Of a stretch of 64,000 bases of DNA, positions 22,044-64,000 are shown piece after piece. Source of the DNA: Paenibacillus sp. SYP-B4298 (GTDB lineage: Bacteria > Bacillota > Bacilli > Paenibacillales > Paenibacillaceae); assembly GCF_027627475.1 (NCBI RefSeq), contig NZ_CP115484.1, forward strand, positions 2,340,001 to 2,404,000, given 5' to 3'. The notes under the pieces are model-generated. The model was not told where the DNA came from, did not search any database, and saw only the letters and a program-made list of their open reading frames with translations. The position numbers and the translations under genes are program-made. Each line of letters begins with the position of its first letter. The stretch's first letter is position 1.

Positions 22044-22826
22044 TTAAAACAATCTGTTCCAGCTTGCTAAATGAGTGATGGTATCGATCTCCTTGGTCAT
22101 CCCGGCAATCAGCTCCTGTTGATGCGTCATGAGGAAAAAATGCCCGCCGGGCAGCATCTCGCTTTTGAAGCGGCTGGCGGTGAATCGCTCCCAGTTGCGC
22201 AGTTGCGGCTCCGGCACCATCTCATCCTGCTTCCCTCCCCAAGCTACTATGGGGCATGTTAATTTGCCTCCCTCATACACATAGGTCTCTGACATCTGAA
22301 AATCAGCCCGCAAGATCGGCGAGCACAAATCCATAAGCTCTGTATCGGCGAGCACCTCTTCAGGAGTACCGCCATACAGGCGCAAGCCCGCCCGGAACTC
22401 CTCCTCCGGCAAACGGTAGATCGGCGCAATCTCCCGCTCCGCATCCGGGGCATTTCTTCCACCCACCATAAGCTGCATCGGGCCAACCCCGAACTGGGCT
22501 TTGCTATATAATGCCAGCTCGAAGGCCACAATCGCGCCCAGGCTATGCCCATAGAACAACACCGGCTTGTCCATATACGGGCGAATGGCATGTGCTGCGG
22601 AACTTGCCAATGCGCGGACATCCGTATAGAGCTCCTCCCCGATACGTGTACCGTGGCCTGGATATTGAACAGCCCATACTTCAACCGTATCCGGCAGCAG
22701 CTTATGCCAGTTGCGAAATACGGATGACGTCCCTCCTGCATAAGGGAAGCAAAACAGGCGAAACAGTGCGCGTTCATTTTTCTGCCGGCAACTTAGCCAG
22801 CGGCTGCTATCTGATAGATTCGTCAA
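22044..22826 (-). CDS. Type II thioesterase of the NRPS cluster (GrsT/SrfTE-like)
   Basis: About 260 residues of the alpha/beta-hydrolase fold. Stand-alone type II thioesterases remove wrong acyl groups from blocked carrier domains and so keep NRPS lines running. Seen: the oxyanion region RLFCFPYAGG (about 25), nucleophile elbow FYGHSLGA (about 92; Ser), the family marker LMVGGRNAPD (S replaced by G in the usual VSGR), and the C-terminal catalytic His in LPGGHFFL (about 230) with the Asp in GGKQDEMV. It is the last gene of the operon, about 75 bases after the NRPS with the terminal TE. I place the start at TTG 22826, nine bases after AAGGAG; an upstream TTG at 22844 overlaps that site. Confidence 0.88.
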   Translation of the reverse strand: MTNLSDSSRWLSCRQKNERALFRLFCFPYAGGTSSVFRNWHKLLPDTVEVWAVQYPGHGTRIGEELYTDVRALASSAAHAIRPYMDKPVLFYGHSLGAIVAFELALYSKAQFGVGPMQLMVGGRNAPDAEREIAPIYRLPEEEFRAGLRLYGGTPEEVLADTELMDLCSPILRADFQMSETYVYEGGKLTCPIVAWGGKQDEMVPEPQLRNWERFTASRFKSEMLPGGHFFLMTHQQELIAGMTKEIDTITHLASWNRLF

Positions 22827-22901
22827 CCCGTTCAGCTCCTTCAAAAATGAGTTAATGAATAAAGCAGAGGGGAGAGGCTTCCTCCCCCTTCTGCAATGAA
22901 A

Positions 22902-25900
22902 CTACTGCTGCAGCACATCTTGCATATGTTGTGCGACAGCCTCCACATGAGGCGAATCCATCATCGTATGATGCTCGCCGGACACATAACGAACGTCGAC
23001 GCCTTGCAACGCAAGCTCCTCCCAGCCCATGGACGGTTCTCCGCCTGCGCTGCCCGGATCATCGACCCGAATAAGAGTGAGCGCTCCGCTGTATCCTTCC
23101 GGCTCATAGCTGCGTGTAGCTGCTGACAGCTCGCGATAGATTCGAACCAGCGCCTCCGCATTGGCCGTGCTCATCTCGTCTGCCGCAACGCCGCGCGTCT
23201 TCGCCTCCTCCAGCAGTGCAGCGAGCTGCTCCTCCGGTTCGACCTGCCTCACCTCGGCCAGCGGAATGTCGATCAGGCGCGACCATAGCTCGGCATCGCT
23301 CAGTTCCAACTCCTCGTCCTCTGTGTCATAGCGGGCAGGCGTGTCCAGCAAGAATAGCTGCTCGACCTCCGCACCCTCCAGGGTCAACTGGCGTGCCATC
23401 TCGTAGGCAATCGTGCCGCCGATAGACCAGCCTCCAAGACGGTATGGGCCGCCAGGATGAGCGCTGCGAAGCTGCTCGATGTAGTCCCTGGCCACCTCCT
23501 CGATCGTTCCGGTTGACATGCCGTCCAGCGCCCGCGACTGGAACGCATGGAACGGTTGATCCGGGCCAAGCAGCTTCGCCAGCGACATATACGCCAGTAC
23601 CAGACCGCCAGCCGGATGGACGAAGAATAGCGGAGGACGGCTGCCATGCGGCTGAAGCGTGACCAGCGGATTGAACGGCGCAGCCGGGCTCTCCATCATG
23701 AGCACGCGAGCCAGTTCGGCAACCGTACCCTTCTCCAGCACCAGGCTGACCGGCAGCTCGCTGCCGAATTCCTGTTTGATTCGCATTACCAGACGAATAG
23801 CCAACAACGAATGGCCTCCCAGCGCGTAGAACGAGTCATGAATGCCGATCTCCGACAACTCCAACTGCTCCTCGAACAACTGCATTAGCCTTAACTCCGT
23901 CACATTGCGCGGCGCAGTATACTCCCGGCTCTCAGTCAGCTCCGGCTGCGGCAGCGCCTTGCGGTCGATCTTGCCGCTGGCTGTCAGCGGCAGCCGCTCC
24001 AGCAGCACGATCGCAGACGGCACCATGTACGCCGGCAACTGCTCCTCCAGCGCCTTGCGCCAGGATTGCCGCAGCTCCTGCTCCGACGCCGCTCCTGTAC
24101 CGCTCTGCTCCTGCGCCACCGCATACGCGATCAGACGCTTCTCGCCTCCGGCTCCTGCGCGAATTGCCGCCACCGCCTGCTTCACTCCAGGCTGGCTCGC
24201 CAGCGCTCCTTCCACCTCCTCCAGCTCGATCCGGTAGCCTCTCAGCTTCACCTGACCGTCCAGTCGTCCTACATATTCCAACTGTCCGTCCGTGCGATAC
24301 CTTACCAGATCGCCCGTCCGGTACAGCCGCGCCCCTGGCCGGAACGGATGCGCTACGAACACCGCCTCCGTCAGCTCCGGCTTGTTCAGGTAGCCCCGTG
24401 CCAGCCCGCGTCCGCCAATGTACAGCTCACCCGCTACGCCCACCGGCACCGGCTGACGATGCGCATCCAACACATACACCTCGGTGTTGGCGATCGGACG
24501 GCCGATCGGCACCTCCTCATACGCCGCCCGTTCCTCCGGCGCGCGGAAGGCCGTGCTGATCACCGTCGTCTCCGTCGGGCCATACGTGTTATACCAGGAC
24601 ACCCGTCCCTGAACCATCTCCTGCCATCGGGCATATTGCGCGGGCGATGGGCGCTCGCCGCCGATGATGACCGCTCGCACGCTTCCCGGCAGCTTCACCT
24701 CCCCGCTCGACAGGGACTGGCTCCACTCCTGCCAATACGCTGTCGCCAGGTTCAGCACGCTCACCCGCTCCGACTCGATCAGCTCCGTGAACTCCCGCAC
24801 GCCCAGCAGCCGCTCCCGCGGCATGACCAGCGTTCCCCCATGCAGCCAGGTCGGGAAGATTTCCTCCACCGCGGCATCGAAGCTGATCGTCGCCATCTGC
24901 AGCACCCGGTCGCTGCTGCTCAATTCATACAGCCTCCCGGCGCTCACATTATGGTTCAGCAGCGATCCGTGCGTGATGACTACACCTTTTGGCTGACCGG
25001 TCGAGCCCGAGGTATAGATCACGTAGGCCGCATGCTCCGGCTTCACGCCGCTCTTAGGCACAGTCGTCGCTTCCGCGGCGATCTGCTCCCGCTCCGCGTC
25101 CAGACAGACCGCCCGCGCATGGTGCTCCGGCAGCCGCGCGGCCACCGCCGACTGCGTCACCAGCAGCGGCAGCTTCGTGTCTGCCAGCATATAGGCGATC
25201 CGCTCCGCCGGATAGCTAGCGTCGATCGGCACATACGCCGCTCCTGCCTTCAGGATGCCCAGCAGTCCTATCGCCAGCTCGGACGTCCGCTCCGCGCACA
25301 GCCCCACCAGCACCTCCGGCCCGGCTCCCAGTCGCCGCAGATAATGCGCCACCTGGTTCGACCGCTCCTCCAGCTCGCGGTACGTTAGCTGCTCCTCGCC
25401 TGCGATCAGCGCGGGCGCGTCCGGCGTTGCTGCGGCCTGCTCGGCGATCAGCTCATGCACGCACCGCTCCGGCAGCGCCTCCAAGGTCGCATTCCAGCTC
25501 TCCAGCAGCTCGGTCAGCTCGGCGGCCTCCAGCCATGGCAGCTCCGTCACCGCGCATTCCGGCTGCTCCGCCATCGCCAGCAGCAGCCGTGACAGCCGCT
25601 GTAGCAGTTCGGCTGCTCCCTGCTCATCCAGCCGGTCGGTCTCATACCCGAGCTGCAGCTCCAGCTCCTCTCCCGGCAGCACCGACAGCGTCAGCGGATA
25701 GTTCGTCCGCTCATATGCTTGTACGCCCACGAGCTGAAGCCCATCGTGCTCGGCTGATTCCTCACTTGCAGCTTGGCCTCCAGCCTCGCCTGCCGCACTG
25801 CTGCTTGCCGCCGTGCCAGGCATCTCGCCAGACCTGGCTGTCCCACGCACACTCTCCACCTGAGTCGCCTGCTCTACCGATGCCCCGGCCTCAGCTTCCA

Positions 25901-28900
25901 GCTCCACTGAAGCCGCAGCCTCCGACGCGCCGCCCGTTACCGTCGTCTGAATCGGATAATTTTCGTACACAATCAGGCTCTCGAACAGCGGCGTGCCTTG
26001 CGGTACGTCGCTCCAGCTCTGTATCTCGCTGAGCGCCGCATACTCATACACCTGCTTCGCCGACTGCTCCTCCTGCAGCTCGCGCAGGTAGGACACTACA
26101 TCCGTTCCGCTCTTCACCCGCACCCGTACCGGCAGCGTATTGATGAACAGCCCTACCATTGTCTCCACGCCCTCCAGCTCAGCCGGACGGCCCGATACGG
26201 TCGCTCCGAATACGACATCCGCTTCCCCGCTCCAGCGGCTCAGCAGCAGCGCCCATGCGCCCTGCACCAGCGTATTGAGCGTGAGCTGATGCGATCGCGC
26301 GAACTGGTTCAACTGTGCGCTCTCCGACACACTCAGCGGCCGCGCAGCCTCCGCGAAGCCCTTGGCTCCTCTGACCTCGCTTGCTGGCAACGCCGTCGGC
26401 CCTTCCACTCCTGACAGATACGTCTGCCAGAAGGTCGCTGCCGCCTGCCGGTCCTGCTGCTGCAGCCAGCCGATGTAGTCCCGGTATGGCCGGATAGAGG
26501 CCAGCTCCAGCTCGCGCCCACTGCAGATCGCTTCATACAGCGCAAAAAATTCCTGAATGACAATCGGATTGCTCCAGCCGTCCAGCAGCAGGTGATGGAA
26601 CGTCCACACCATGCTCACCGTCTGCTTGTCCCTCCGTATAAGCGCGAAGCGCATCAGCGGCGCCTGGCTGAAGTCGAAGCCCTGCTCCCTGTCCTCCAGC
26701 AGATACTGCTCCAGCTTCGTCTCCTGCTCTGAAGACGTGTACTCGCTCCAGTCCAGCTCTACAATTGGCAGGCGCACCTCATCGCTCACCGATTGCAGCG
26801 GCTGATCAAAGCCGCTTAGCTCGATACGGACGCGCAGCCCGCTATGTCGGCGGAGCAGCTCACGCCACGCCTGCTCGAAGGCCTGTCGGTTAAATGCTCC
26901 GCTCAGCGTCAAGCAGCTCTGCTCGCAATAGATGCCGGCATCCGGCCTGGCAAGCGAATGGTACAGCATCCCCTCTTGAAGCGGACTAAGCGGATACAGG
27001 TCGCGAATATGCCTGTCGGACGCATACAACCGATCTAATTGCTCTTGGGAGACCGCAAGCAACGGGAAATCCGATGGCGTCACCCCTCCGGCATGCGGCA
27101 GGCGGCAGTGATCTATCATGACGCGCAGCTCCTGCACGAAGGCTGCTGCCAGCCTTTCGATCGTCTCGACCCGATGCAGCCTTGAACTGAACGTCCAATT
27201 CAGTATCAACTGTCCGCCGCTGACACCGCCATTAATTTCGATCAGATGATCGCGCGGGGCATCTGGATGATGCGGCTGACCGGATGATTCCGGCGCTCCA
27301 GAGATCCATCCGCTCTCCTGAGCCATCTGATCCATTTGGCCCAAGTAGTTGAACAGAATACCCGGCGATTCCACATGCTCAAGTTGCTGTGCTGTCTCTG
27401 CATGTCCGTTAAGATAGCGCAGCAGCCCATAGCCGATGCCCTTATGCGGAATGCTGCGAAGCTGTTCCTTCACCCCCTTCAAATCCCGTTCCAGCGAACC
27501 GTCACCATCGAGTGCCAGCAGCACCGGATGAACCGTTGTAAACCATCCTACTGTGCGCGAAAGATCGACATCGTCGAACAAGTCCTCCCGCCCATGCTCC
27601 TCCAGATGGATACGTACTCGCTTCTCTCCCGTCCAGGCCGCGAGGGCCCTTGCAAGTGCCGTCATCAGAAGATCATTAATTCTCGTTCTGTACACCGGCG
27701 GCATCTCCTGCAGCAGTGCGGTCGTCGCCTCGGCATCCAGCACACTCATGATGGACTGCGCATCAGCGTAGGTATTTACCGCTGACACCGCCTCCAGCGA
27801 GACATCTCCATCGAGCGGCAACGGCAGTGGACGAAGACGCTCCTCCTGAAGCCAGTAAGTCCGCTCCTCTTGCATGGCAGGGGACTGCGCATAATCGTGC
27901 AGTCTTCTCGCCCATGCCTGGAACGAGGTCGTCTTGTCCGGCAGAGTAAGCGGCTCACCCTGCAGCGCCTGCGAATAGGCGGTCTGCAAATCCTCCATGA
28001 GAATACGCCAGGACACACCGTCCACCGCTAAATGGTGGATAATCAGCAGCAGTCGCGCCGGCTGCCCCGCACCCAGGTCGAATACTGCGGCGCGCATGAT
28101 CGGGCCGTTCTCCAGCGCCAGTGATTGTTGCAGTCGCTGCGCCTCCTCCTCGATTCGGCGTGTCTGCTCCTCCTGCTCCAGACCCGACAGATCCAGTCTG
28201 GTGACCGGCACACTCTCATCCGGTGCAGCTATCGTCTGACGCCAGCCCTCCTCTGTCTTCGCATAGCGAAGCCTCAATGCATCATGGTGGCGCGATAGCA
28301 ATGCCAGTGACTGGCGAATGGCTCTGGCATCCACCGGCTGGCGGATCGCGAGCAGCATCGCCTGATTCCAATGATGTCTTGAAGGAATCTCCTGCTCGAA
28401 GAACCAGTGCTGGATTGGCGTCAGCAGAACATCACCAGTGACCGGCCCCTGCTCCGCAATGACGGGAGCCGAGAGCTTTGCGACCGCGGCTAGCCCAGCC
28501 ACGGTCTGATGCTCGAACATCTGCTTCGGCGTCAGCTTCAAGCCAGCCTGTCCCGCTCGCGACACGATCTGAATGCTGACGATCGAGTCGCCCCCCAGCT
28601 CGAAGAAATTATCATGAATGCCGACCCGCGACACCCCAAGCGCCTGCGCCCATAGCTGGCAGAGCTGTGCCTCCACCGCATTTCGCGGCGCAGTATACTC
28701 CCGGCTCTCAGTCAGCTCCGGCTGCGGCAGCGCCTTGCGGTCGATCTTGCCGCTGGCTGTCAGCGGCAGCCGCTCCAGCAGCACGATCACGGACGGCACC
28801 ATGTACGCCGGCAACTGCTCCTCCAGCGCTTTGCGCCAGGACTGCCGCAGCTCCGACTCCGACACCGTTCCTGTCTCGCCCTGCTCCTGCGCCACCGCAT

Positions 28901-31900
28901 ACGCGATCAGACGCTTCTCGCCTCCGGCTCCTGCGCGAATTGCCGCCACCGCCTGCTTCACTCCAGGCTGGCTCGCCAGCGCTCCTTCCACCTCCTCCAG
29001 CTCGATCCGGTAGCCTCTCAGCTTCACCTGACCGTCCAGACGTCCTACATATTCCAACTGTCCATCCGTGCGATACCTTACCAGATCGCCCGTCCGGTAC
29101 AGCCGCGCCCCTGGCCGGAACGGATGCGCTACGAACACCGCCTCCGTCAGCTCCGGCTTGTTCAGGTAGCCCCGTGCCAGCCCGCGTCCGCCAATGTACA
29201 GCTCACCCGCTACGCCCACCGGCACCGGCTGACGATGCGCATCCAACACATACACCTCGGTGTTGGCGATCGGACGGCCGATCGGCACCTCCTCATACGC
29301 CGCCCGTTCCTCCGGCGCGCGGAAGGCCGTGCTGATCACCGTCGTCTCCGTCGGGCCATACGTGTTATACCAGGACACCCGTCCCTGAACCATCTCCTGC
29401 CATCGGGCATATTGCGCGGGCGATGGGCGCTCGCCGCCGATGATGACCGCTCGCACGCTTCCCGGCAGCTTCACCTCCCCGCTCGACAGGGACTGGCTCC
29501 ACTCCTGCCAATACGCTGTCGCCAGGTTCAGCACGCTCACCCGCTCCGACTCGATCAGCTCCGTGAACTCCCGCACGCCCAGCAGCCGCTCCCGCGGCAT
29601 GACCAGCGTTCCCCCATGCAGCCAGGTCGGGAAGATTTCCTCCACCGCGGCATCGAAGCTGATCGTCGCCATCTGCAGCACCCGGTCGCTGCTGCTCAAT
29701 TCATACAGCCTCCCGGCGCTCACATTATGGTTCAGCAGCGATCCGTGCGTGATGACTACACCTTTTGGCTGACCGGTCGAGCCCGAGGTATAGATCACGT
29801 AGGCCGCATGCTCCGGCTTCACGCCGCTCTTAGGCACAGTCGTCGCTTCCGCGGCGATCTGCTCCCGCTCCGCGTCCAGACAGACCGCCCGCGCATGGTG
29901 CTCCGGCAGCCGCGCGGCCACCGCCGACTGCGTCACCAGCAGCGGCAGCTTCGTGTCTGCCAGCATATAGGCGATCCGCTCCGCCGGATAGCTAGCGTCG
30001 ATCGGCACATACGCCGCTCCTGCCTTCAGGATGCCCAGCAGTCCTATCGCCAGCTCGGACGTCCGCTCCGCGCACAGCCCCACCAGCACCTCCGGCCCGG
30101 CTCCCAGTCGCCGCAGATAATGCGCCACCTGGTTCGACCGCTCCTCCAGCTCGCGGTACGTTAGCTGCTCCTCGCCTGCGATCAGCGCGGGCGCGTCCGG
30201 CGTTGCTGCGGCCTGCTCGGCGATCAGCTCATGCACGCACCGCTCCGGCAGCGCCTCCAAGGTCGCATTCCAGCTCTCCAGCAGCTCGGTCAGCTCGGCG
30301 GCCTCCAGCCATGGCAGCTCCGTCACCGCGCATTCCGGCTGCTCCGCCATCGCCAGCAGCAGCCGTGACAGCCGCTGTAGCAGTTCGGCTGCTCCCTGCT
30401 CATCCAGCCGGTCGGTCTCATACCCGAGCTGCAGCTCCAGCTCCTCTCCCGGCAGCACCGACAGCGTCAGCGGATAGTTCGTCCGCTCATATGCTTGTAC
30501 GCCCACGAGCTGAAGCCCATCGTGCTCGGCTGATTCCTCACTTGCAGCTTGGCCTCCAGCCTCGCCTGCCGCACTGCTGCTTGCCGCCGTGCCAGGCATC
30601 TCGCCAGACCTGGCTGTCCCACGCACACTCTCCACCTGAGTCGCCTGCTCTACCGATGCCCCGGCCTCAGCTTCCAGCTCCACTGAAGCCGCAGCCTCCG
30701 ACGCGCCGCCCGTTACCGTCGTCTGAATCGGATAATTTTCGTACACAATCAGGCTCTCGAACAGCGGCGTGCCTTGCGGTACGTCGCTCCAGCTCTGTAT
30801 CTCGCTGAGCGCCGCATACTCATACACCTGCTTCGCCGACTGCTCCTCCTGCAGCTCGCGCAGGTAGGACACTACATCCGTTCCGCTCTTCACCCGCACC
30901 CGTACCGGCAGCGTATTGATGAACAGCCCTACCATTGTCTCCACGCCCTCCAGCTCAGCCGGACGGCCCGATACGGTCGCTCCGAATACGACATCCGCTT
31001 CCCCGCTCCAGCGGCTCAGCAGCAGCGCCCATGCGCCCTGCACCAGCGTATTGAGCGTGAGCTGATGCGATCGCGCGAACTGGTTCAACTGTGCGCTCTC
31101 CGACACACTCAGCGGCCGCGCAGCCTCCGCGAAGCCCTTGGCTCCTCTGACCTCGCTTGCTGGCAACGCCGTCGGCCCTTCCACTCCTGACAGATACGTC
31201 TGCCAGAAGGTCGCTGCCGCCTGCCGGTCCTGCTGCTGCAGCCAGCCGATGTAGTCCCGGTATGGCCGGATAGAGGCCAGCTCCAGCTCGCGCCCACTGC
31301 AGATCGCTTCATACAGCGCAAAAAATTCCTGAATGACAATCGGATTGCTCCAGCCGTCCAGCAGCAGGTGATGGAACGTCCACACCATGCTCACCGTCTG
31401 CTTGTCCCTCCGTATAAGCGCGAAGCGCATCAATGGCGCCTGGCTGAAGTCGAAGCCCTGCTCCCTGTCCTCCAGCAGATACTGCTCCAGCTTCGTCTCC
31501 TGCTCCGAGGACGTAAACTTGCTCCAGTCCAGCTCCACGATCGGCAGAGCTGCTTCCTTTGCCAGGACCAACACAGGCTGCTCCAACCCTTCCCACTCGA
31601 CTCGGCTGTATAACACCGGATGGCGGTTCCATACACGAGCCCATGCCGCCACGAAAGCATCCCTTTGGAACGCTCCCTTCAACGTAAAGCAGCTCTGCTC
31701 GCAATAGATGCCGGAATGAGGCTCTGCAAGCGAATGGAATAGCATTCCGGTCTGCATCGGTGTCAATGGATACAGATCTTGCAGATGCGGCTCTTGTCTG
31801 TATAACTGGTCGAGGCGCGTGGACGTGATGGATACCAACGGGAAATCCGAAGGCGTCACGCCTCCTGCCCCAACGCTGCGGCAGTGAGCAATGATGTCGC

Positions 31901-53693: not shown

Positions 53694-53695
53694 CT

Positions 53696-56600
53696 TTAGC
53701 TGTTCCTCCCGCTATCCATTTTTTTTAGAATTCGATCCAGTTGCTTTTGCGATAATTCCGCTTCAGGGAAATCCGATGGCGTGTACGCGGCCGAATGGGA
53801 CGTTTCCTCCGATTGGCAATGCCTGACCAGCTCCAGCAGCGCATGCCTGACATCGTCTGCCACCTGCTCAATCGTCTCTCTGCGATGCAGATTGGTGCTA
53901 TAGGTGAACATCAGATGAAGCTGCTGACGAACGACCATCCCGGCCACATCAATCATATGCTGCCGTGCATTGCCAGCCTCCTGTGTCATGCCGCTCGACT
54001 CCTTGGCCTGCCTCAGCAGCCCGTCCTCACGGTAGAGCGATGACATCTGACCCAGATAGTTGTAGCTGATCTCTACCTCAGGAAATGCTGTCTTCAGCTC
54101 CTGGCAGCGCTCGTCCTCATCCAGATAACGTACAATACCGAAGCCGAAGCCCCGCTCCGGCACGGCCCTCAACTGCTCCTTCACCGCGAGCAGCCTGGAG
54201 ATCACGCCGTCTGTCTGCGAGGAGTCGAGCAGTACCGGATAGATCGAGGTGAACCAGCCGACTGTACGCGACAGATCGGTTCCCTCAAGCTGCTCGCGTC
54301 CATGACCCTCCAGGTGCAGCAGCAGCTTGCTGCTGCCTGTCCAATTCTCCATTGCCGTGAGCAGCGCGGACAGCAGCGCCTCGTCAATTCGGGTGCGATA
54401 GGCCGCAGGCACTTGCTGCAGCAGCAGTCTCGTGCTCTCCTCGTCCAGCTCCACACTAACCGTCTCTGCTGAGAGGAGCGTATTCAACTCGGCAAGCTCA
54501 TCATCATCGGCTGCGTAATCGAGCGGTACACGCGGTATCCAGGTGCAGGCCATACTCTCCCAGAACGGGAGATGCTTGCGGTATGTTCCCCGCTGCGCCT
54601 CCTCTGCCAGACGCTTCGCCCATTGCTGGAAGGAGGTCGTCTTGGGCGGCAATGCAGGCGGATCGCCCGCCGCCAACTGTTGGCACAGCGTCTCTACATC
54701 CTCCAGCAGGATGCGCCAGGATACCCCGTCCACAACGAGATGGTGTATCGCCAGAAATAATCTGGCAGGCTGGTCGCCAAGTCCGAACCACGCTGCAGAC
54801 CACACGCGGCCTGCCTGCAGATCCATGCCCGTCTGAAGCTCGGCAGCCACCGCTTCGATGCGCTGTTGTTGCTGCTCCGCAGACAACTGCGAGAGCTCCT
54901 CACATACCAGCGCAACCTCGCACTCGCCTGCGTTGTATTGCCTCCAGCCCCCATCCACCTCTTCAAACCTCATGCGCAGCGCATCATGATGGGATACAAG
55001 CAACTGCAGCATCTGCTGTACCTGCTCCGGCTGCAATTGAACATGCAGCTCCAGCATGAATGATTGGTTCCAGTAGCTGCGGCTCGCCAGCGGCAAATGG
55101 AAGAACCAGTGCTGCACCGGCGTCAGCGGAACCTCTCCTTCTACCCGTCCCTGCTCGGCCTGCGGGGCGGCTGTTGACTCCGCCACTGCGGCAAGCTCGG
55201 CTATCGTCTGATAGTGGAACAGTTGCTTCGGCGTCAGCTTGAGCCCGGCTTGCTGCGCACGCGCCACAATCTGGATGCTCAGGATCGAATCTCCTCCCAG
55301 CTCGAAGAAATTATCATGCCGCCCCACCTGGTCGATACCAAGCACCTCCGACCAGATCGCAGCAAGCGCGAGCTCCTGCGGCTCTGTCGGCGCGACATAC
55401 CTTGCCTGGGAGACCAGCTTCGGCTCCGGGAGCTGCGCACGGTTCACCTTGCCGCTAGGCAGCAATGGCAATACATCCAGCAGCATTATTACAGTAGGAA
55501 CCATGTAATCCGGCAGGCGCTCCTTCATATAGTCGCGCAGTTGCTCCTCCGTGACCGTCTCCTCTGTCCCGGACAGCGCTGCATAAGCCACCAGACGCTT
55601 CTCGCCGCCGCTGCCCGTATGTGCAACAACCACGGCCTGACCTACAGCAGGATGCATGCTCAGCTCCCGCTCGATTTCTCCCGGCTCGATCCGATAACCG
55701 CGCACCTTGACCTGATGATCCAATCGTCCCAAAAATTCAATCCAGCCCTCTGGTGAATAACGCACCAGATCACCGGTTCGATACAGCCGTTCTCCTTGCT
55801 TGAACGGATGCGCTACAAACTTCTCGGCTGTCAGCTCCGGCTGGTTCAGATAGCCGCGAGCCAGGCCATCGCCGCCCACATACAGCTCGCCAGGCATGCC
55901 CAGCGGCATGAGACGCCCTGATTTATCCAGAATATAGCAGTCGGTGCCTTGTACCGGCCTGCCGATCGGGATCGTCTGCGACTGGCCTTGAGGAATCCGA
56001 TAATAGCAGGTAAAGGTTGTATTTTCCGTTGGCCCATATCCATTCACAACCTCCAGCCCTTCAAGCTCCAGCGCCTTGCGCACATGAGGAACACTCAGCG
56101 TGTCCCCGCCTGCCCATAGCTGCTTCAGCCCTCGCAGACCTTGCGGATATTCGTCCACCATCGTATGGAACAACGGGGCAGTCAGCCACGCCACGGTAAC
56201 ACCGCATTCCACCATATACTCACCTAGCTCCTGTACAGACGGCAGACCCGGCGGCATGATCGCAAGCGTGCCCCCTCTCAGCAGACTCCCCCAAATCTCA
56301 AAGGTCGACGCATCAAAGGATACCGGAGCGAACTGCAGCATCACCTCGCCCGGGCCAAGCCGCGCTTCCTCCAGCCCAAGCGCCAGCCGCACGACGGCGC
56401 GATGCGACACGGCCACCCCCTTAGGCCGTCCGGTTGAACCGGATGTATACATCACATAAGCAAGCTGCTGCGCATCGCCTGACGCCCTCCATGGCGCGAC
56501 CGGCTCCCGCATCATGCGCTCCCATTCCTCATCCAGCAGGATGACTCTCTCCGCTGCGGGCAGCCCTTGCTGTACGCTGCGTTCTGTCACCAGCAGACGC

Positions 56601-59600
56601 AGCTTCGTCTCCTCGGCCATTAGGCGAAGACGTTCCTCCGGGTAGTCAGGATCGAGCGGGATATAGATGCCTCCCGCCTTCACGATGCCGACCAGCGCAA
56701 TGATGGCCTCTATCGATCGCTCCAGCGCCAGACCCACAGGAACCTCAGGCCCGACGCCCAGCTTGCGCAAGTACGAGGCTACCCGGTCAGCCCGGCGGTT
56801 CAACTCGGCGTATGTCATCTGTGACTCTCCAAACACCAGTGCCAACGCTTCAGGTGTACGATCCGCTTGCTCCGTGAATAGCTGCCCGATCGTCTTGTTG
56901 CGCGGGTAGCTGACCACAGTCGCATCCCACTCCTGCAATAGCCGCTGCTCCTCCGCGGCAGCCAGCATCGGAAGCTCGCCTACCGGGCTGGACGGCCGCT
57001 CTGTCATACTCTCCAGCAGACGGCGCACATGCCCAAGCAGTTGCTGCATCATCGGTTCGCTATAGCGCGCGGAGTCATAAGCTGCGCGCAGCTCCAGCTC
57101 TTCACCCGGAATGACCGTAATTGTAATCGGATAGTTCGTCCGCTCATGCGTGGCAATGTCCACGAGCTCCATCGCCTGGGAGGAGGCCTCTGGCGCAATC
57201 GCTGCTGCTACCTCCGCATCCGGTCTTAAAACCGGATAATTCTCGTATACCAGCAGACTCTCAAATAGCGGCGTTCCGCGAGGAATCTCGCTTAGACGGT
57301 GAATCTCCGCCAGAGACAGATATTCATATTGCCTCATATCGGTCTGCGCGGCTTGCAATTGTCTCAGCCATTCCAGCACAGCTAGCTGTGGCGACACGAG
57401 CTGCCTGACAGGCAGCGTATTAATGAACAGGCCGACCATCGCCTCCACGCCCTCCAGCTCGGCCGGACGGCCGGATACGGTCGTGCCGAACAGCACATCC
57501 GCTTCACCGCTGTATCGACTGAGCGCCAGTCCCCAGGCACCCTGGAGCAGTGTGCTCAATGTCAACTGACCGCTGCGAGCCATCGCGTCCAGCTCTCCGG
57601 TCAGCCTGCTGCCAAGCTTGACGCGAAGCTCCTGCACATCCGGCTGCTCTGTGCCTGCCGCCACGGTGCCCATAATGGCGGACGGGCTCTCCAGACCCTT
57701 CATATAGCGCTGCCAGTATTCCCTTGCCGCCTCCATGTCCTGCTTCGCCAGCCAGGCCGCATAATTTCGGTAAGAAGGCACAGCCTCAAGCTGTGGATGC
57801 GCTCCGGCAGCATAGGCTTCATAGAGCGTGAACCACTCGCGAATAACCGTCGGCACACTCCAACCGTCCAGCAGCAGATGGTGAAACGTCCAGATGAGCT
57901 GATGCCGCTGCTCATCCAACCTCACCACCGTTACCCGCATCAATGGCGATTGGTCAAATTCAAACCCGCGTATTTTGTCCGATTCCAGCAACAGCTCCAG
58001 CCTGTACGGCTGCTCCTTCCCAGGCACGGCGCTCAAATCCGCGTATTCGATAGGGACAGCCGCTTCCTTGAGCAGGACAAGATGCGGGCGATCCAATCCT
58101 TCCTGCATCACGCAGGTACGCAAGATTTCATGCCGCTGCAGCAGCTCGCGCCAGGCTCGCCGAAGGAGCTGCTCATCCGGCGCTCCGAGCACGGTGAAGA
58201 CGCATTGCTCGCAGTAGAGGCCGGAATCTGGCGATTCGATCGAATGATAGAGCATCCCCTCTTGCATCGGCGTCAGCGGGAATAGATCCTCCATGCCTGG
58301 ATAACGGTCATAGATCTGTTCCAGTTGCTCCGCTGTCACCTGTGCAAGCGGCACATCGGACACGGTAATGCCGCCTGTGCCTGGGCGGCAACAGTGCGCG
58401 ATCAGCTCGCCCAGTTCACGCATGTAGAGGTCGGCCAGCCGCTCGATCGTCTCCGGGTTGAGATGATTCCTGCTGTACACCCAAGTCATACTCAACCCGC
58501 CCCCGGCAATAACTCCCGAGATGTCGAGCAGTTGCTCGCGCCTATAAGCCGGGTCCACCTCATCTCCCATGGACTCGGGGGCACCGCCGAAGAGCGCCTC
58601 TTGGCCTGCGGGAAGCAGATGATCGAACTGACCCAAGTAATTAAAGCTCAGCTTGGGCACCGGCAGCGCCTCCGCCTCCGCATGTCTGCTCATGTACCGC
58701 AGCAGGCCATAACCGAGGCCGCGCCCCGGAATGGCGCGCAGTTGCTCCTTGACTGACTTGAGATGGAGCCCAGGGTCAAGCCGCTCGGGGAGCTCCAGCA
58801 GCACAGGGAACATCGCTGTGAACCATCCCACTGTTCTGGACAGATCCAGCTCTTCGCCGATCTCTTCCCGTCCATGCCCTTCAAGATAGAGCAACAGTCT
58901 GCGATCCTTCGTCCAGGCTGACATGGCGCGAGCCAATGCGGTCAGCAGCACATCGTTGATCTGTGTCCGATATGCCGCAGGAACCTCCGTCAGAAGCTGC
59001 CGCGTCTGCTCATTGCTTAAGCGTCGCATCGTCTGACCGCTAGCCGCGGCTGTGTAGGAACCGCCATCTTGATCGACTGGGAAGGCGGGCTCTTGTAGGT
59101 ACCTCTCGCTCATCCAGTAAGCGGCTTCCGCCTGCACTTGCGCTGATTGCGCAAAGCGTTTAAGCTGTGCCGACCACTCCAAGAGCGAGGTGGTCTTGGG
59201 TGGCAGCTCTGTCTGCCGCTGGTCGAGCAGTTGGCCGCACAGCGTATGGAGATCATCCAGCAGAATCCGCCAGGACACCCCATCCACCGCCAGATGGTGA
59301 ATAATAAGCAGCAGCCTGCACGGCTCCCCCACTTTCAAGCGGAAGTAGACGGCGTTCAGCAGCATCCCTTCGTCAAGACGGATACGGCGCTGGGCGGCCT
59401 GCGCCTCATCCTCCAGCGCGGACACCTGCTGCTCGCGCCCCAGATGCGACAGATCGATGACCGTCAGGGATACCGGCCTGCCCGTTCCGGCATTGTACAG
59501 CCTGGCCGTCCGGCCAGTCCCTTCCACACGCAGCCGCAACGCATCATGGTGAGCGACCAGCGCATCCAGTGCCCGCTGCAGCAAGGCTGGAGAGAGCGAC

Positions 59601-62600
59601 GGCTGCACTGTCAGCATCAGACCCTGATTGAAATGATGCGGCGCTGCCAGCTCCCGCTCCAAAAACCAGCCTTGAATCGGCGTCGGGCATACTTCGCCCT
59701 CTACGACCCCCTGAATCGCTGTGATGCGCCTCGCGCGGGTAGCGGCTTGCGCCAGCGCGGCTATCGTCTGGTGCTCGAATAGATGCTTCGGTGTCAGTTG
59801 CAGGCCGTGCTTTTTCGCCCGGTTGACGATCTGGATGCTTAATATCGAATCCCCGCCAAGCGTAAAATAATTGTCATGGATGCCTACCCGTCCTACGCCA
59901 AGCACCTCCGACCAGATCGAGGCCAGTTGCTCCTCCGCCTCGTTGCGGGGCGCCTCGTATCCTTGCGTCGATACAGCCTCCAGCGGCTCAGGCAAGCCGT
60001 TGCGATCTACCTTGCCGTTAGCTGTAAGCGGGAGCCGCTCCAGCACAGTAATGGACGGCGGAACCATATAGTCCGGCAGCTCCGCCTGCATAAATGATCG
60101 GAGCTGCTCCGCCTGCAGCATCGCATCCTCATAGAGAGATGGCGCGACATATGCGAGCAGTCGCGGCTCGCCGGAGGCGCCGGGACGGATGAGCACGGCC
60201 GCCTCCCGAATGCCGGGATAACGAAGCAGCGTCTGCTCGATCTCGCCCAGCTCGACACGGAAGCCGCGAACACTCACCTGATCATCCATGCGGCCGACGT
60301 ACTCAATCTCGCCTTCCGGCGTATATCTGCACAAGTCTCCAGTCGCATACATCCGCTCTTGCTGCGAGCGAGCATTCAGATGGCGAACAAACTTCCGCGC
60401 AGTCAGCTCCGGCTGCCCCCAGTAGCCTCTGGCCAGACTTTTCCCCGCAATATACAGCTCGCCAGCTACCCCGACAGGCACTGCCTGGCGATGATGATCC
60501 AGTATATAGACCTGTGTATTGCTGATCGGACGGCCAATCGTAGGGCGGGTTGCTCGCTCTGCTGTCGGCACCAGACCACTGGTGGCCACCACCGTGTTCT
60601 CCGTCGGACCGTAGTTGTTGAACAATTGAAAAGGCAGAGCCGGATCTGCATAACGATGCAGTGTATCCCCACCTACAAGCAGCGCCCTTAGCGGTGCAGA
60701 AGCAGGCCAGTCCAGCTCCAGCAGCCGTTCTCCAAGCGGTGTCGGCAGGAAGCTGATCGTTATGCGCTGACGCAGCAGCCATTCCTGCAGTTGCTCCGGC
60801 ATCAGTCTGCATTCCTCATCTGGCACCAGCAGGGAAGCGCCTGCCGTCAAATACGGCCATATCTCCCACACCGACGCATCGAAGGCCGTGCCGGCAATCA
60901 AGGTGGCGCGATCTTGCGCAGTCACCATGTAGGCCTCGCAGTGCCATTCGATCAGGTGCAGCAGTGCCGCGTGGGTAACCTCCACCCCCTTGGGGCGTCC
61001 CGTCGAGCCGGAGGTATAGATGACATAAGCCAGGTCGGACAGCTCCGTCCAGTCAGGCGGCGGCTGATCATTTGCACACTCAAGGTGTGGCCAATCCGCA
61101 TCCAGCGCAATCGTGCGAGGCCGCCGCTCTGGCAGCCGCTCTGCAACATGCGCTTGAGTAAGCAACAGCGGCGCCCCCGTATCCTCCAGAATGAATTGCA
61201 GTCGTTCCCTGGGATAACCGGGGTCGAGCGGCACATAAGCGCCACCCGCCTTCATAATCCCCAGCAGGCCTACCACCAGCTCTGCAGAACGCTCTGCGCA
61301 GATGGCAACCAGTGTTTCTCTGCCAACGCCTGCCCCACGCAAATAATGAGCCAGTTGATTGGAACGCCGCTCCAACTCGGCATAAGTAAGCTCGACCTTG
61401 CCCGCGCTGATCGCTGCTTGTGAGGGCGCAGCAGCAGCCCGCTCCGCGAATCGACGGTGCGCAGTCAGCATGCCCGCTAGCGGACGTTCGGTACGGTTCC
61501 ACTCCACAAGCATCCGGTTCAGCTCCTGCTCCGACAAGGAAGGCAGCGATGATAATGGCTGATCTGCATACTGAACGAAGCCGTTCAGCACCGTCTTGAG
61601 CTGCTCCAGTAGACGCTCGATCGCCTCGCCCGCAAATCTCGCCGGATCGAACAGCAACTGCATTTCGAAGGAAGGGCCAGGCAATGCAATAATTGTGATC
61701 GGATAACCGGTCTGCTCATAGCTCTGCACCCCTGCCAGCTTCAAGCCGCCATGCCGTTCGATGACGGTGCCGTCAATCGGGTAGTTCTCAAAGACGACGA
61801 GGCTGTCGAACAGTCGCTGACCGCCAGTGAGGCCGCTCCATTGTTGCACCTCCAACAGCGGGCTGTGCTCGTAAGCCCGAAGCTGTGTCAGCTCGGCCTG
61901 CAGCGCCTGCAGCCACTCGGCTGCAAGCTCATGCCCTGGAACCGTAACACGCACCGGAAGCGTATTAATGAACAGACCCACCATCGACTCAGCTCCCGGC
62001 AGTGTATGCGGACGTCCGGATACAACCGAGCCGAACACCACATCCTCCTCGCGGCTAACACGGCTCAGCACTAGCGCCCATGCGCCCTGCAGCACCGTGC
62101 TCATCGTCACCCGCTGCTGCTTCGCGAAGGCCTGCAGCAAGCTCGTCTCCTCCTCGGAGAGCTGAATGCGGCGCTCATTATCGCTTTCATGAGGATTGGG
62201 AAGTCCGCCCAGCGCCAGCGGAGTGGGAACATTCGCCCCTTGCAGCTTCTGCCGCCAGAACGACTCGGTCTGCTCTGGGCGCTGCTTCCTAAGCCAGCCA
62301 ATATAATTCCGGTAGGGCTGAACAGTGCCTAGTACCCTCTCCTCCCCATTGCGGAAGGCTTCATATAGCTGAAATACTTCCTGAAACAACACCCCGATGC
62401 TCCAGCCGTCCACCAGCAGATGGTGGATCGTCAGCACAAAGGCATACCGCTCTTCCTCCATGCGAATCAGCGCCAGCCGCAGCAGCGGGGGATTCGTCAG
62501 CTCGAAGCCCCTGCTCCTGTCGGCGCTCAGGTAGCGCTCCAGCCGTCCTGACTGCTCATCAGCAGACAGATCCCGCCAGTCAAGCCGCTCCAGCGGCAGC

Positions 62601-62851
62601 TCCACACTGCGGTGTACAACTTGAATCGGCTCTTTCACATCCTCGCTTATAACGGATGCACGCAATATCGCATGGCGCTGCACAAGCTGCTGCCACGCCC
62701 GCTCCCAGGCGGCATCATCCAGCGCGCCGCTCAGATGCAGCGCGGACTGGATGATATATACACCGGATTCGGGTGCATACAAGCTGTGGAACAGCATTCC
62801 CTGCTGCATCGGAGAGAGCGGGTAAAAGTCTTCCATATTTTTCAGAGTCAT
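53696..62851 (-). CDS. Two-module NRPS: C-A-T-E, C-A-T-E
   Basis: About 3051 residues. Starts with an acceptor-docking segment and a DCL-type C domain (MEDFYPLSPMQQGMLFHSL; HHLLVDG near 147). A1 (core near 615) has code DAWFLGNVVK, the established Leu code. A2 (core near 2137) has DAFWWGGTFK, close to Val codes such as DAFWIGGTFK; Ile is an alternative. Carrier Ser sites are GGDSI near 1000 and 2522. Both E domains have intact HHLAVDG/HHLVVDG (near 1189 and 2707), EGHGRE and TVGWFT. Predicted output: D-Leu, D-Val. The C-terminal tail (YTPSDFPEAELSQKQLDRILKK) follows the last E domain and should be the donor docking segment for the next synthetase. ATG 62851 is preferred; GGAAGGA lies about 12 bases upstream, and a TTG at 62878 opens nine further codons. 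Confidence 0.92.
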   Translation of the reverse strand: MTLKNMEDFYPLSPMQQGMLFHSLYAPESGVYIIQSALHLSGALDDAAWERAWQQLVQRHAILRASVISEDVKEPIQVVHRSVELPLERLDWRDLSADEQSGRLERYLSADRSRGFELTNPPLLRLALIRMEEERYAFVLTIHHLLVDGWSIGVLFQEVFQLYEAFRNGEERVLGTVQPYRNYIGWLRKQRPEQTESFWRQKLQGANVPTPLALGGLPNPHESDNERRIQLSEEETSLLQAFAKQQRVTMSTVLQGAWALVLSRVSREEDVVFGSVVSGRPHTLPGAESMVGLFINTLPVRVTVPGHELAAEWLQALQAELTQLRAYEHSPLLEVQQWSGLTGGQRLFDSLVVFENYPIDGTVIERHGGLKLAGVQSYEQTGYPITIIALPGPSFEMQLLFDPARFAGEAIERLLEQLKTVLNGFVQYADQPLSSLPSLSEQELNRMLVEWNRTERPLAGMLTAHRRFAERAAAAPSQAAISAGKVELTYAELERRSNQLAHYLRGAGVGRETLVAICAERSAELVVGLLGIMKAGGAYVPLDPGYPRERLQFILEDTGAPLLLTQAHVAERLPERRPRTIALDADWPHLECANDQPPPDWTELSDLAYVIYTSGSTGRPKGVEVTHAALLHLIEWHCEAYMVTAQDRATLIAGTAFDASVWEIWPYLTAGASLLVPDEECRLMPEQLQEWLLRQRITISFLPTPLGERLLELDWPASAPLRALLVGGDTLHRYADPALPFQLFNNYGPTENTVVATSGLVPTAERATRPTIGRPISNTQVYILDHHRQAVPVGVAGELYIAGKSLARGYWGQPELTARKFVRHLNARSQQERMYATGDLCRYTPEGEIEYVGRMDDQVSVRGFRVELGEIEQTLLRYPGIREAAVLIRPGASGEPRLLAYVAPSLYEDAMLQAEQLRSFMQAELPDYMVPPSITVLERLPLTANGKVDRNGLPEPLEAVSTQGYEAPRNEAEEQLASIWSEVLGVGRVGIHDNYFTLGGDSILSIQIVNRAKKHGLQLTPKHLFEHQTIAALAQAATRARRITAIQGVVEGEVCPTPIQGWFLERELAAPHHFNQGLMLTVQPSLSPALLQRALDALVAHHDALRLRVEGTGRTARLYNAGTGRPVSLTVIDLSHLGREQQVSALEDEAQAAQRRIRLDEGMLLNAVYFRLKVGEPCRLLLIIHHLAVDGVSWRILLDDLHTLCGQLLDQRQTELPPKTTSLLEWSAQLKRFAQSAQVQAEAAYWMSERYLQEPAFPVDQDGGSYTAAASGQTMRRLSNEQTRQLLTEVPAAYRTQINDVLLTALARAMSAWTKDRRLLLYLEGHGREEIGEELDLSRTVGWFTAMFPVLLELPERLDPGLHLKSVKEQLRAIPGRGLGYGLLRYMSRHAEAEALPVPKLSFNYLGQFDHLLPAGQEALFGGAPESMGDEVDPAYRREQLLDISGVIAGGGLSMTWVYSRNHLNPETIERLADLYMRELGELIAHCCRPGTGGITVSDVPLAQVTAEQLEQIYDRYPGMEDLFPLTPMQEGMLYHSIESPDSGLYCEQCVFTVLGAPDEQLLRRAWRELLQRHEILRTCVMQEGLDRPHLVLLKEAAVPIEYADLSAVPGKEQPYRLELLLESDKIRGFEFDQSPLMRVTVVRLDEQRHQLIWTFHHLLLDGWSVPTVIREWFTLYEAYAAGAHPQLEAVPSYRNYAAWLAKQDMEAAREYWQRYMKGLESPSAIMGTVAAGTEQPDVQELRVKLGSRLTGELDAMARSGQLTLSTLLQGAWGLALSRYSGEADVLFGTTVSGRPAELEGVEAMVGLFINTLPVRQLVSPQLAVLEWLRQLQAAQTDMRQYEYLSLAEIHRLSEIPRGTPLFESLLVYENYPVLRPDAEVAAAIAPEASSQAMELVDIATHERTNYPITITVIPGEELELRAAYDSARYSEPMMQQLLGHVRRLLESMTERPSSPVGELPMLAAAEEQRLLQEWDATVVSYPRNKTIGQLFTEQADRTPEALALVFGESQMTYAELNRRADRVASYLRKLGVGPEVPVGLALERSIEAIIALVGIVKAGGIYIPLDPDYPEERLRLMAEETKLRLLVTERSVQQGLPAAERVILLDEEWERMMREPVAPWRASGDAQQLAYVMYTSGSTGRPKGVAVSHRAVVRLALGLEEARLGPGEVMLQFAPVSFDASTFEIWGSLLRGGTLAIMPPGLPSVQELGEYMVECGVTVAWLTAPLFHTMVDEYPQGLRGLKQLWAGGDTLSVPHVRKALELEGLEVVNGYGPTENTTFTCYYRIPQGQSQTIPIGRPVQGTDCYILDKSGRLMPLGMPGELYVGGDGLARGYLNQPELTAEKFVAHPFKQGERLYRTGDLVRYSPEGWIEFLGRLDHQVKVRGYRIEPGEIERELSMHPAVGQAVVVAHTGSGGEKRLVAYAALSGTEETVTEEQLRDYMKERLPDYMVPTVIMLLDVLPLLPSGKVNRAQLPEPKLVSQARYVAPTEPQELALAAIWSEVLGIDQVGRHDNFFELGGDSILSIQIVARAQQAGLKLTPKQLFHYQTIAELAAVAESTAAPQAEQGRVEGEVPLTPVQHWFFHLPLASRSYWNQSFMLELHVQLQPEQVQQMLQLLVSHHDALRMRFEEVDGGWRQYNAGECEVALVCEELSQLSAEQQQQRIEAVAAELQTGMDLQAGRVWSAAWFGLGDQPARLFLAIHHLVVDGVSWRILLEDVETLCQQLAAGDPPALPPKTTSFQQWAKRLAEEAQRGTYRKHLPFWESMACTWIPRVPLDYAADDDELAELNTLLSAETVSVELDEESTRLLLQQVPAAYRTRIDEALLSALLTAMENWTGSSKLLLHLEGHGREQLEGTDLSRTVGWFTSIYPVLLDSSQTDGVISRLLAVKEQLRAVPERGFGFGIVRYLDEDERCQELKTAFPEVEISYNYLGQMSSLYREDGLLRQAKESSGMTQEAGNARQHMIDVAGMVVRQQLHLMFTYSTNLHRRETIEQVADDVRHALLELVRHCQSEETSHSAAYTPSDFPEAELSQKQLDRILKKMDSGRNS

Positions 62852-62902
62852 TGTGTACGCACGTTCCTTCCGAATCAAAATGCCAGCTCATCTCCGGTAC
62901 GA

Positions 62903-64000
62903 TCAGGAGCCGGATTGTTTCTTGATCGCATCAAGGAATCCGTCCAACTCGGACTGATCCCAGCCAAACTCCGCAAAATCCGCCGAGGAGTAAGCATCCG
63001 CTCCATTCTCCCTAAGATGGAGAATCAGGTCTCGCAGTGAGTCCATCGTCTCTCTGGCGAGCTGCACTGCCGCAGCGCCGAGTTGAGCGCTACAACTGCA
63101 CTCGATCTGCAGCCGTCCCTCCGTGATGCCCGCGGCGACCGCAATCTCCGCCCCGCCCCGAATATACTCCGCGCAGCTCTCGCCTGGCGGCATCTCCACC
63201 TCGGCAAATTGCGTCCACGCTGTACCTGCTGCGGCTAGATCTGCCTCATCTTCATAGCAGTAGCTTAGATGTGGCTTGATGCCGCCCTCATGCGCGCTCG
63301 CCAGCTCCGCATAAGCGGTACGCAGCGATTCGCTGCCGATGCCATGCCGCGGCATACGGCGCAACTGCTCCTTGACCGGCGCGATCAGCTCCGGCAAAGG
63401 CTGTATAGCACCCAGCTCCAGCCATAATGAGAAGCGCGAGTTGAACTGCCCGACCGTCCGCGTAAGGTGGAGTGAGTCCTCTCGACCACGTCCGGTCTCC
63501 TCTACCTCCACCAGCAGCGCGCGATTGGCTGCCTGCTGCATCAGCGCCTTCGCCAGAGCAGCCAGCACAAGCTCGCTTGCCTCTGCACGGTATGCCGGAG
63601 CGACCTCGTGCATCAGTGCGTAGGTATCCTCAGCGGACAAGTTTGCCCGGATTGCACTTTGGATCGCGCCAGAGAGTGACGACCCGAGGATCATCTCTCC
63701 TGTCGATACAGATGGCTCATTCAGTCGCAGCGGCTCCGCCTCCATTTCCATTGACCATGATGTCTGCCCACTCGATGCCTCTACGATCTCCTCCTGCTCC
63801 AAGGCTTGCTGAACCCAGGTGTGGAAAGCGACCGTCCTTAGCGGCAGTTGCACCGTCTCTCCGGCAAGCGCCTGACAATAAGCGCGATGCACATCTTCCA
63901 ACAGCAACGACCATGAGTGCCGATCTGCTACCATGCTGTGCACAGCCAGCAGCAACTGCTCGGGGTGTTGGTCTCCGAAGTCCAGCAGCACGGCGCCCAC
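62903..64000 (-). CDS. C-terminal end of the preceding NRPS, ending in a degenerate epimerization domain (partial)
   Basis: The frame is open through the right edge, so only the last 365 residues are visible and the GTG at 64000 is not a start. They align with the E domain family by pattern: LLLAVHSMVADRHSW (consensus HHxxxDGxSW), YRAEASELVLAALAKAL (consensus YRTQINDVLLTALA), LTRTVGQFNSRF (consensus SRTVGWFTSMY) and a C-terminal docking tail (SELDGFLDAIKKQSG). The second His of HHxxxDG, the catalytic base in tyrocidine-type E domains, is Ser, the last Gly is Arg, the EGHGRE motif is altered (ETGRGRED), and the NYLGQ motif is missing (SYCYED). It is therefore probably inactive as an epimerase. 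The gap to the next gene is about 50 bases. The amino acid loaded by this last module cannot be seen. Confidence 0.85.
   Translation of the reverse strand: MGAVLLDFGDQHPEQLLLAVHSMVADRHSWSLLLEDVHRAYCQALAGETVQLPLRTVAFHTWVQQALEQEEIVEASSGQTSWSMEMEAEPLRLNEPSVSTGEMILGSSLSGAIQSAIRANLSAEDTYALMHEVAPAYRAEASELVLAALAKALMQQAANRALLVEVEETGRGREDSLHLTRTVGQFNSRFSLWLELGAIQPLPELIAPVKEQLRRMPRHGIGSESLRTAYAELASAHEGGIKPHLSYCYEDEADLAAAGTAWTQFAEVEMPPGESCAEYIRGGAEIAVAAGITEGRLQIECSCSAQLGAAAVQLARETMDSLRDLILHLRENGADAYSSADFAEFGWDQSELDGFLDAIKKQSGS

Follow-up and report, generated by a model that had tools for sequence, protein, structure and literature searches.

Polyketide lines started by FkbH and DH-KR parts include the bryostatin, difficidin and boromycin types, and linear gramicidin has a formylating start and a strict alternation of D and L residues. 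The gramicidin chain has 15 residues (excerpt of PMC12383022). Among the Pseudomonas peptins, fuscopeptin has 19 residues and a lactone from Thr15 to residue 19, and the tolaasin lactone comprises five residues (excerpt of PMC12473245). The operon of Paenibacillus sp. SYP-B4298 analysed here resembles the peptins (fuscopeptin, tolaasin, syringopeptin), as that excerpt describes them, in that their 18-25 residues are mostly D, the tail is hydrophobic and the C-terminal part short and cationic; with fuscopeptin it shares the same geometry of 19 residues with Thr at position 15, the ring here being predicted. It differs from the peptin systems in belonging to a probable spore-former and in having separate E domains, one TE and, where peptins begin with a fatty acid, an FkbH front end. 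Like the linear gramicidin synthetase of Brevibacillus, it is a very long NRPS with a small N-terminal cap and many D residues, but its E-bearing modules stand in consecutive runs, it has an FkbH front end and a TE, and its product would have a cationic C-terminus. With MaoC-SDR, FkbH and a carrier protein, the line begins as the FkbH/DH-KR polyketide lines do; in those the parts feed a ketosynthase, in the present operon an NRPS condensation domain.

The window, that is, the whole stretch of 64,000 nucleotides analysed, covers bases 2340001-2404000 of a 6.26-Mb genome in one contig. A Spo0A match of 415 bits (cut-off 200) in this genome indicates that the host is probably an endospore-forming member of Bacillota. 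Together with the fetched upstream sequence, the window revealed an operon at genome positions 2358950-2453238, entirely on the minus strand, with 12 ORFs, all open across 94 kb, in the order 784-aa protein, FkbH, MaoC-SDR protein, NRPS A to F, type II TE and ABC pair. The six NRPSs have 4946, 4176, 5672, 3060, 4159 and 6103 aa (28116 aa in sum), and three starter genes thus precede NRPS A. The window carries modules 11-19, i.e., 9 of the 19 modules, at 22902-62878 on the minus strand. The sequence-only reading of the window had assumed one missing upstream gene; an upstream part does exist, but it comprises ten modules in three NRPS genes. A genome of another genus in the same family (G175) holds an operon with all 12 gene functions. 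The features in window coordinates are as follows.

18950..21918, minus: ABC pair, a 479-aa ATP-binding protein (PF00005, 105.5 bits) and a 509-aa membrane protein
22044..22844, minus: type II thioesterase, 266 aa (PF00975, 138.8 bits; G175 orthologue 64%)
22902..41213, minus: NRPS F, 6103 aa, modules 16-19 and TE
22917..23633, minus: terminal TE domain (PF00975, 106.6 bits; GWSIG, with Asp and His located by eye)
24167..26717 (approximate ends), minus: module 19 copy of the tract shared by modules 18 and 19
28943..31493 (approximate ends), minus: module 18 copy of the same tract
39750..41090, minus: C16, LCL-type by tree and PDB matches, after the E-less Thr module 15
41214..53693, minus: NRPS E, 4159 aa, modules 13, 14 and 15
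53696..62878, minus: NRPS D, 3060 aa, modules 11 and 12
61526..62842, minus: C11, DCL-type by tree and PDB matches, behind the dead E10
62903..64000, minus: NRPS C (5672 aa, modules 7-10), 3' end, with most of E10 and the conserved C-terminal docking tail
63014..64000, minus: most of the degenerate E10, the eighth E domain in the window, with HSMVADR in place of HHxxxDG

An Rfam search gave no matches within the window, and a search of plasmid DNA returned seven records with 0-1% query coverage each. Several other genes were noted. A phosphotransferase of the APH family (77.1 bits) lies at 2688-3791 of the window; downstream of the operon and outside the window, a D-Ala-D-Ala-type ligase adjoins an alanine racemase (locus L008, 12943-15323), and the Van-specific models all scored below their cut-offs for this ligase. 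Across the whole genome the Condensation family was matched 76 times, with pieces counted in, and a 7045-aa open frame at about 165-185 kb, among these matches, points to at least one further very large NRPS.

The entire line contains 19 C, 19 A and 15 E domains and a single TE. The A-domain codes, read by alignment to GrsA PheA, gave the following assignments.

Module 1: DAWFLGHVV, Leu
Module 2: DLFNNALTY, Ala
Module 3: DAWFLGHVV, Leu
Module 4: DALFMGATI, Val (best guess)
Module 5: DAFFLGATF, Val/Ile, no E
Module 6: DAWFLGHVV, Leu
Module 7 (NRPS C): DLFNNALTY, Ala
Module 8 (NRPS C): DAFFFGATY, Ile/Val, no E
Module 9 (NRPS C): DVENVGAIT, basic
Module 10 (NRPS C): DLFNNALTY, Ala, dead E
Module 11 (NRPS D): DAWFLGNVV, Leu, E
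Module 12 (NRPS D): DAFWWGGTF, Val, E
Module 13 (NRPS E): DAENIGTVS, basic, Lys in the predicted product, E
Module 14 (NRPS E): DAWFLGHVV, Leu, E
Module 15 (NRPS E): DFWNIGMVH, Thr, no E
Module 16 (NRPS F): DAWFLGHVV, Leu, E
Module 17 (NRPS F): DVWHMSLID, Ser, E
Module 18 (NRPS F): DAENIGTVI, basic, Lys-like, E
Module 19 (NRPS F): DAENIGTVI, basic, Lys-like, TE instead of E

We take DLFNNALTY to be an Ala code, and modules 4, 5 and 8 presumably select Val or Ile. Published codes, as given in excerpts of the sources, match DAWFLGNVVK to Leu, DFWNIGMVHK to Thr and DVWHMSLVDK to Ser (PMC12283262), DAFWIGGT to Val (PMC10548584), and DAESIGSV of bacitracin BacB to Lys and DFWNIGMV to Thr (PMC3207962). 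The Lys assignments are based on the agreement of DAENIGTV with this bacitracin code at six of eight positions. Since DVENVGAIT fits the Arg pattern in the excerpt of PMC12283262 at 8 of 9 positions, residue 9 is called just basic. The predicted residues 1-10 are Leu-Ala-Leu-Val-Val/Ile-Leu-Ala-Ile/Val-basic-Ala and the predicted residues 11-19 are Leu-Val-Lys-Leu-Thr-Leu-Ser-Lys-Lys, so that the product is probably a C3 hydroxyacid, perhaps lactyl, followed by 19 residues, 14 of them predicted to be D. The window alone had earlier been read as nine complete modules, seven of them with an intact E domain. Both counts stand, with nine C-A-T modules (11-19) and with HHxxxD(G/A) in modules 11, 12, 13, 14, 16, 17 and 18, and the codes returned the same residue order (Leu, Val, basic, Leu, Thr, Leu, Ser, basic, basic). 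The same reading knew of no described lipopeptide of this order; a published product with a matching order was not found among the entries listed from open-licence PMC papers, and the lipopeptide part of the statement lacks support, as discussed below.

The stereochemistry was assessed from the E domains and the C-domain types. HHxxxD is present in 14 of the 15 E domains (in E4 a Ser follows its Asp; E18 departs from the strict RTVGWFT pattern and has the E-HGR motif). The exception is E10, which reads HSMVADR and scores 180.7 bits, compared with 386-497 for the 14 others. C1, C6, C9 and C16 group together in the C-domain tree as an LCL clade (support 0.999), which includes all three C domains behind the E-less modules 5, 8 and 15, and all 14 C domains downstream of an HHxxxD-bearing E domain fall in the DCL group. 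All 17 testable junctions thus show a C type in agreement with the E content; the exception is C11, which is placed in the DCL group despite the dead E10 upstream. The PDB matches agree with the tree for C16 (Txo1 363, Txo2 359 and TycC 257 bits; SrfA-C 122) and for C11 (McyB, PvdL, BacC, SrfA and TycB, 389 to 262 bits; Txo2 105), given the LCL and DCL labels that we assume for these entries. Accordant E domains and C types uphold the earlier view of a large NRPS with a mostly D product: positions 5, 8, 15 and 19 are predicted to be L, and 14 residues D. With its E domain dead, Ala10 is probably L as well, and the DCL-type C11 would have to take either an L residue or a residue whose epimerisation happens elsewhere.

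Judged by its motifs, E10 is dead in both lines, the G175 copy retaining HHLAID without an E-HGR motif (by eye). The two E10 orthologues are 33.9% identical, compared with 57.1 ± 3.5% (minimum 50.1%) for the other 12 E pairs. The final 30 residues of NRPS C are identical at 27 of 30 positions between the two lines, and the ends of NRPS A and D at 21 of 30, and we infer that the E10 fold may have been retained so that the docking tail is still offered to NRPS D.

The 577-aa FkbH protein, encoded ahead of the NRPS genes, scored 287.2 bits with TIGR01686 (cut-off 146.65), as in FkbH-started lines. The 506-aa MaoC-SDR protein has a MaoC and an SDR domain with DxxPLH, GxSRGxGAA and YxxxK conserved, and the front of NRPS A consists of a GNAT-like piece, which aligns to the C-terminal part of FkbH, a carrier at residue 269 and C1. 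Homologues of the MaoC-SDR protein were found in 3 of the 295 family genomes and in three plasmid records, and at all six loci (the present one, G175, a third family genome G035 and three Streptomyces plasmids) the protein has a carrier and an FkbH-type protein either fused to it or encoded nearby. MaoC-SDR, FkbH and carrier are fused ahead of a polyketide synthase in G035 and S. anulatus. The G035 line itself (L019 7797-19310 and L020) is an uncharacterised C3-started line of the same family, whose first PKS protein has the order MaoC-SDR-FkbH-ACP-KS, the FkbH part being called by eye and the ACP by Pfam.

In the proposed scheme, FkbH would make a glyceryl unit from 1,3-bisphosphoglycerate and load it on the leading carrier of NRPS A; dehydration and reduction by the MaoC-SDR protein would then give a lactyl unit, and the LCL-type C1 would couple this C3 hydroxyacid to Leu1. 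FkbH is tabulated as forming D-lactate-ACP from 1,3-bpg and ACP (excerpt of PMC7901079), and this entry, together with the company of MaoC-SDR, FkbH and carrier in six of six loci, makes lactyl the first choice. The conversion on the carrier is suggested by the gene company of MaoC-SDR. A literature search on FkbH and lactyl found nothing, and the FkbH-carrier units within the cystomanamide NRPSs are reported to give glycerate (excerpt of PMC9581180). Glyceryl and acryloyl are the alternative starters. The MaoC-SDR protein could also halt at a different oxidation state, a possibility that counts against the lactyl scheme.

A fatty-acyl starter was rejected as first choice in view of the FkbH front end and the place of C1 in the LCL clade (0.999); neither a starter C domain nor an acyl ligase was found for module 1. 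The earlier term lipopeptide is thus at odds with a front end made of FkbH, MaoC-SDR and a GNAT-like piece with carrier. A conventional lipopeptide, its N-terminus or glyceryl hydroxyl carrying a fatty acid attached with help from the degenerate C-like N-terminus of the 784-aa protein, would agree with the acylation of most D-rich peptins reported in the excerpt of PMC12473245. The 784-aa protein shows a weak C-domain relation (33.2 bits) followed by an FkbH-like HAD part, but HHxxxDG was not seen in the C-like region of either orthologue. The first Asp of the HAD motif, a residue of recognised role, is replaced by Glu in both. As an acyl-CoA ligase was likewise not noted among the operon genes and C1 groups with LCL domains, we regard this explanation as unlikely.

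Comparison with G175 showed which parts of the line are conserved. The operon was found in 2 of the 295 family genomes sampled and in one of seven genomes of its own genus, the other congeners being without it; in the order (1 of 392) and phylum (1 of 398) samples the one positive was the genome itself. At most three candidates were scored per genome in the latter two samples, so distant homologues may have escaped. Protein identities between the two operons are 58, 61, 59 and 60% for NRPS A, D, E and F, 61% for the first 1474 residues of NRPS B against ORF B of G175, 68% for FkbH, 56% for MaoC-SDR, 64% for the type II TE, 64 and 60% for the ABC proteins and 38% for the 784-aa protein. G175 has the same flanks and 16 modules, our modules 6-8 (Leu-Ala-Ile/Val) being absent. 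Thirteen of the 16 comparable A codes are identical; positions 5 and 9 differ by one residue each, and position 10 is wholly different (Ala here, Leu in G175). The segment Thr-Leu-Ser-Lys-Lys is kept in both lines, its Thr being residue 15 of 19 here and 12 of 16 in G175. A frame change between modules 4 and 5 of G175 (contig 11, 112885-112957; L013-L014) gives two overlapping ORFs and is either real or a sequencing error.

Scanning the DNA identity of module pairs in 150-base windows suggested how the lines diverged. Outside the tracts, paired modules are 43-71% identical, and sharply bounded A-domain tracts are near-identical, with one or two intermediate windows (75-94%) at their edges. Four such pairs lie in 22902-62878 of the window and the upstream genome sequence 2404000-2447331: modules 7/10 (99-100% over ~1.5 kb), 3/6 (93-100% over ~1.65 kb), 5/8 (86-99% over ~1.65 kb) and 18/19 (99-100% over ~2.5 kb, with a repeat spacing of 4776). 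G175 has pairs of its own (7/11 and 15/16, 96% protein identity), and in the A-domain tree m18/m19 and h15/h16 each pair within their own genome, which argues that A domains were overwritten independently in both lineages. By its codes, position 10 carries in each line a copy of a different neighbour (Ala or Leu). The tree also pairs E4/E7, C5/C8 and C6/C9 (supports 0.997, 0.983 and 0.927). The present line seems to have gained its three additional modules; with two lines compared, their loss in G175 is a possible alternative.

In both genomes the operon is flanked by gltD-like and topB-like genes, here about 95 kb apart (genome 2358215-2453667, from 18215 of the window past its right edge). 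Eight of the 17 non-holders were fetched, and six of them have a gap of 0.7-2.3 kb between these genes. G160 has a 7.2-kb gap and a weak topB match (34%), and G048 shows no topB in the fetched stretch and a TEII-like match (35%) after gltD, perhaps part of another NRPS cluster at the same site. The ABC ATPase was present in 2 of 19 genomes, the two operon holders (84 candidates scored per genome). The GC content of the operon is 59.5% here, against 54.3 and 54.5% in the flanks, and 50.2% in G175, against 45.2 and 44.6%. Recent transfer was set aside, as the identities of the operon proteins lie in the same range as those of the core genes on either side; these identities and the GC comparison fit better with long residence or with old inheritance and loss. 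Against this stand the congeners without the operon.

Elongation in module order would give a 19-mer with 14 predicted D residues, and the single TE domain at the end of module 19, whose triad looks intact, would free it, in the likeliest case closed into a lactone of five residues between Thr15 and Lys19. The putative product, whose hydrophobic, protease-resistant tail would carry a cationic ring, may insert in membranes like the Pseudomonas peptins, and the ABC pair probably serves in its export or in protection of the producer. To this whole scheme, a C3-started 19-module line with a Thr15-Lys19 lactone and a membrane-inserting product, we give an even chance. The same 19-mer might instead be linear, or lactonised on the hydroxyl of the lactyl or glyceryl starter, which stays free after C1, leaving Thr15 a mere residue. 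One TE with an intact-looking triad suits hydrolysis or either ring, and a lone TE is no proof of a ring; the conservation of Thr-Leu-Ser-Lys-Lys in both the 16-module and the 19-module line, next to a preceding stretch that changes, speaks for the Thr ring, and we consider the linear or starter-closed product possible at somewhat less than an even chance. That the cluster is decaying or silent would agree with the lost E10 motif, with the overwriting of A domains and with the presence of the operon in just 2 of 295 family genomes. We find such a loss of function quite improbable, as all 12 ORFs are open over 94 kb, 13 of 16 codes are the same in another genus, and the other 12 orthologous E domains are 57% identical.

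Within the preferred C3-started scheme, a membrane-active peptide is the best guess for function, from the geometry of fuscopeptin as given in the excerpt cited above and from the order of the residues, of which 1-8 are aliphatic by code and the basic ones come after. The peptide had also been called possibly amphipathic. The helical hydrophobic moment, calculated for the code-derived peptides with position 4 as Val, positions 5 and 8 as Ile and every basic code as Lys, did not exceed that of composition-preserving shuffles at 100, 120, 160, 170 or 180 degrees for either peptide; because the share of shuffles reaching the observed moment was 0.07 to 0.79 across the ten tests, an amphipathic helix is not claimed. 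With its 14 HHxxxD-bearing E domains and aliphatic residues 1-8, the line is peptin-like in being long, mostly D and hydrophobic in its tail. A Thr code stands at 15 of 19 here and at 12 of 16 in G175, with ring closure predicted, and the start has FkbH-type genes where peptins have a fatty-acyl N-terminus. It is on account of this front end that we do not count the product as a member of the peptin family; by function it would be a peptin-like membrane agent. Tentatively, the line may be a Bacillota counterpart of the peptins with a lactyl-capped, mostly D peptide segment in place of a lipid as membrane anchor, extended from a 16-mer to a 19-mer by recombination, with swapped A-domain cores and a dead E domain as docking adaptor.

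The dead E10 before a DCL-type C11 poses a testable stereochemical puzzle at residue 10. The orthologous pair represents a natural experiment in assembly-line evolution, with three extra modules and with A domains cleanly replaced where C, T and E keep their places, and the tract boundaries are directly useful for work on NRPS modularity. If the proposed scheme is true, a polyketide-type C3 starter would be coupled to an NRPS line that ranks among the longer ones, and the fuscopeptin-like geometry would have been reached by an independent route outside Pseudomonas.
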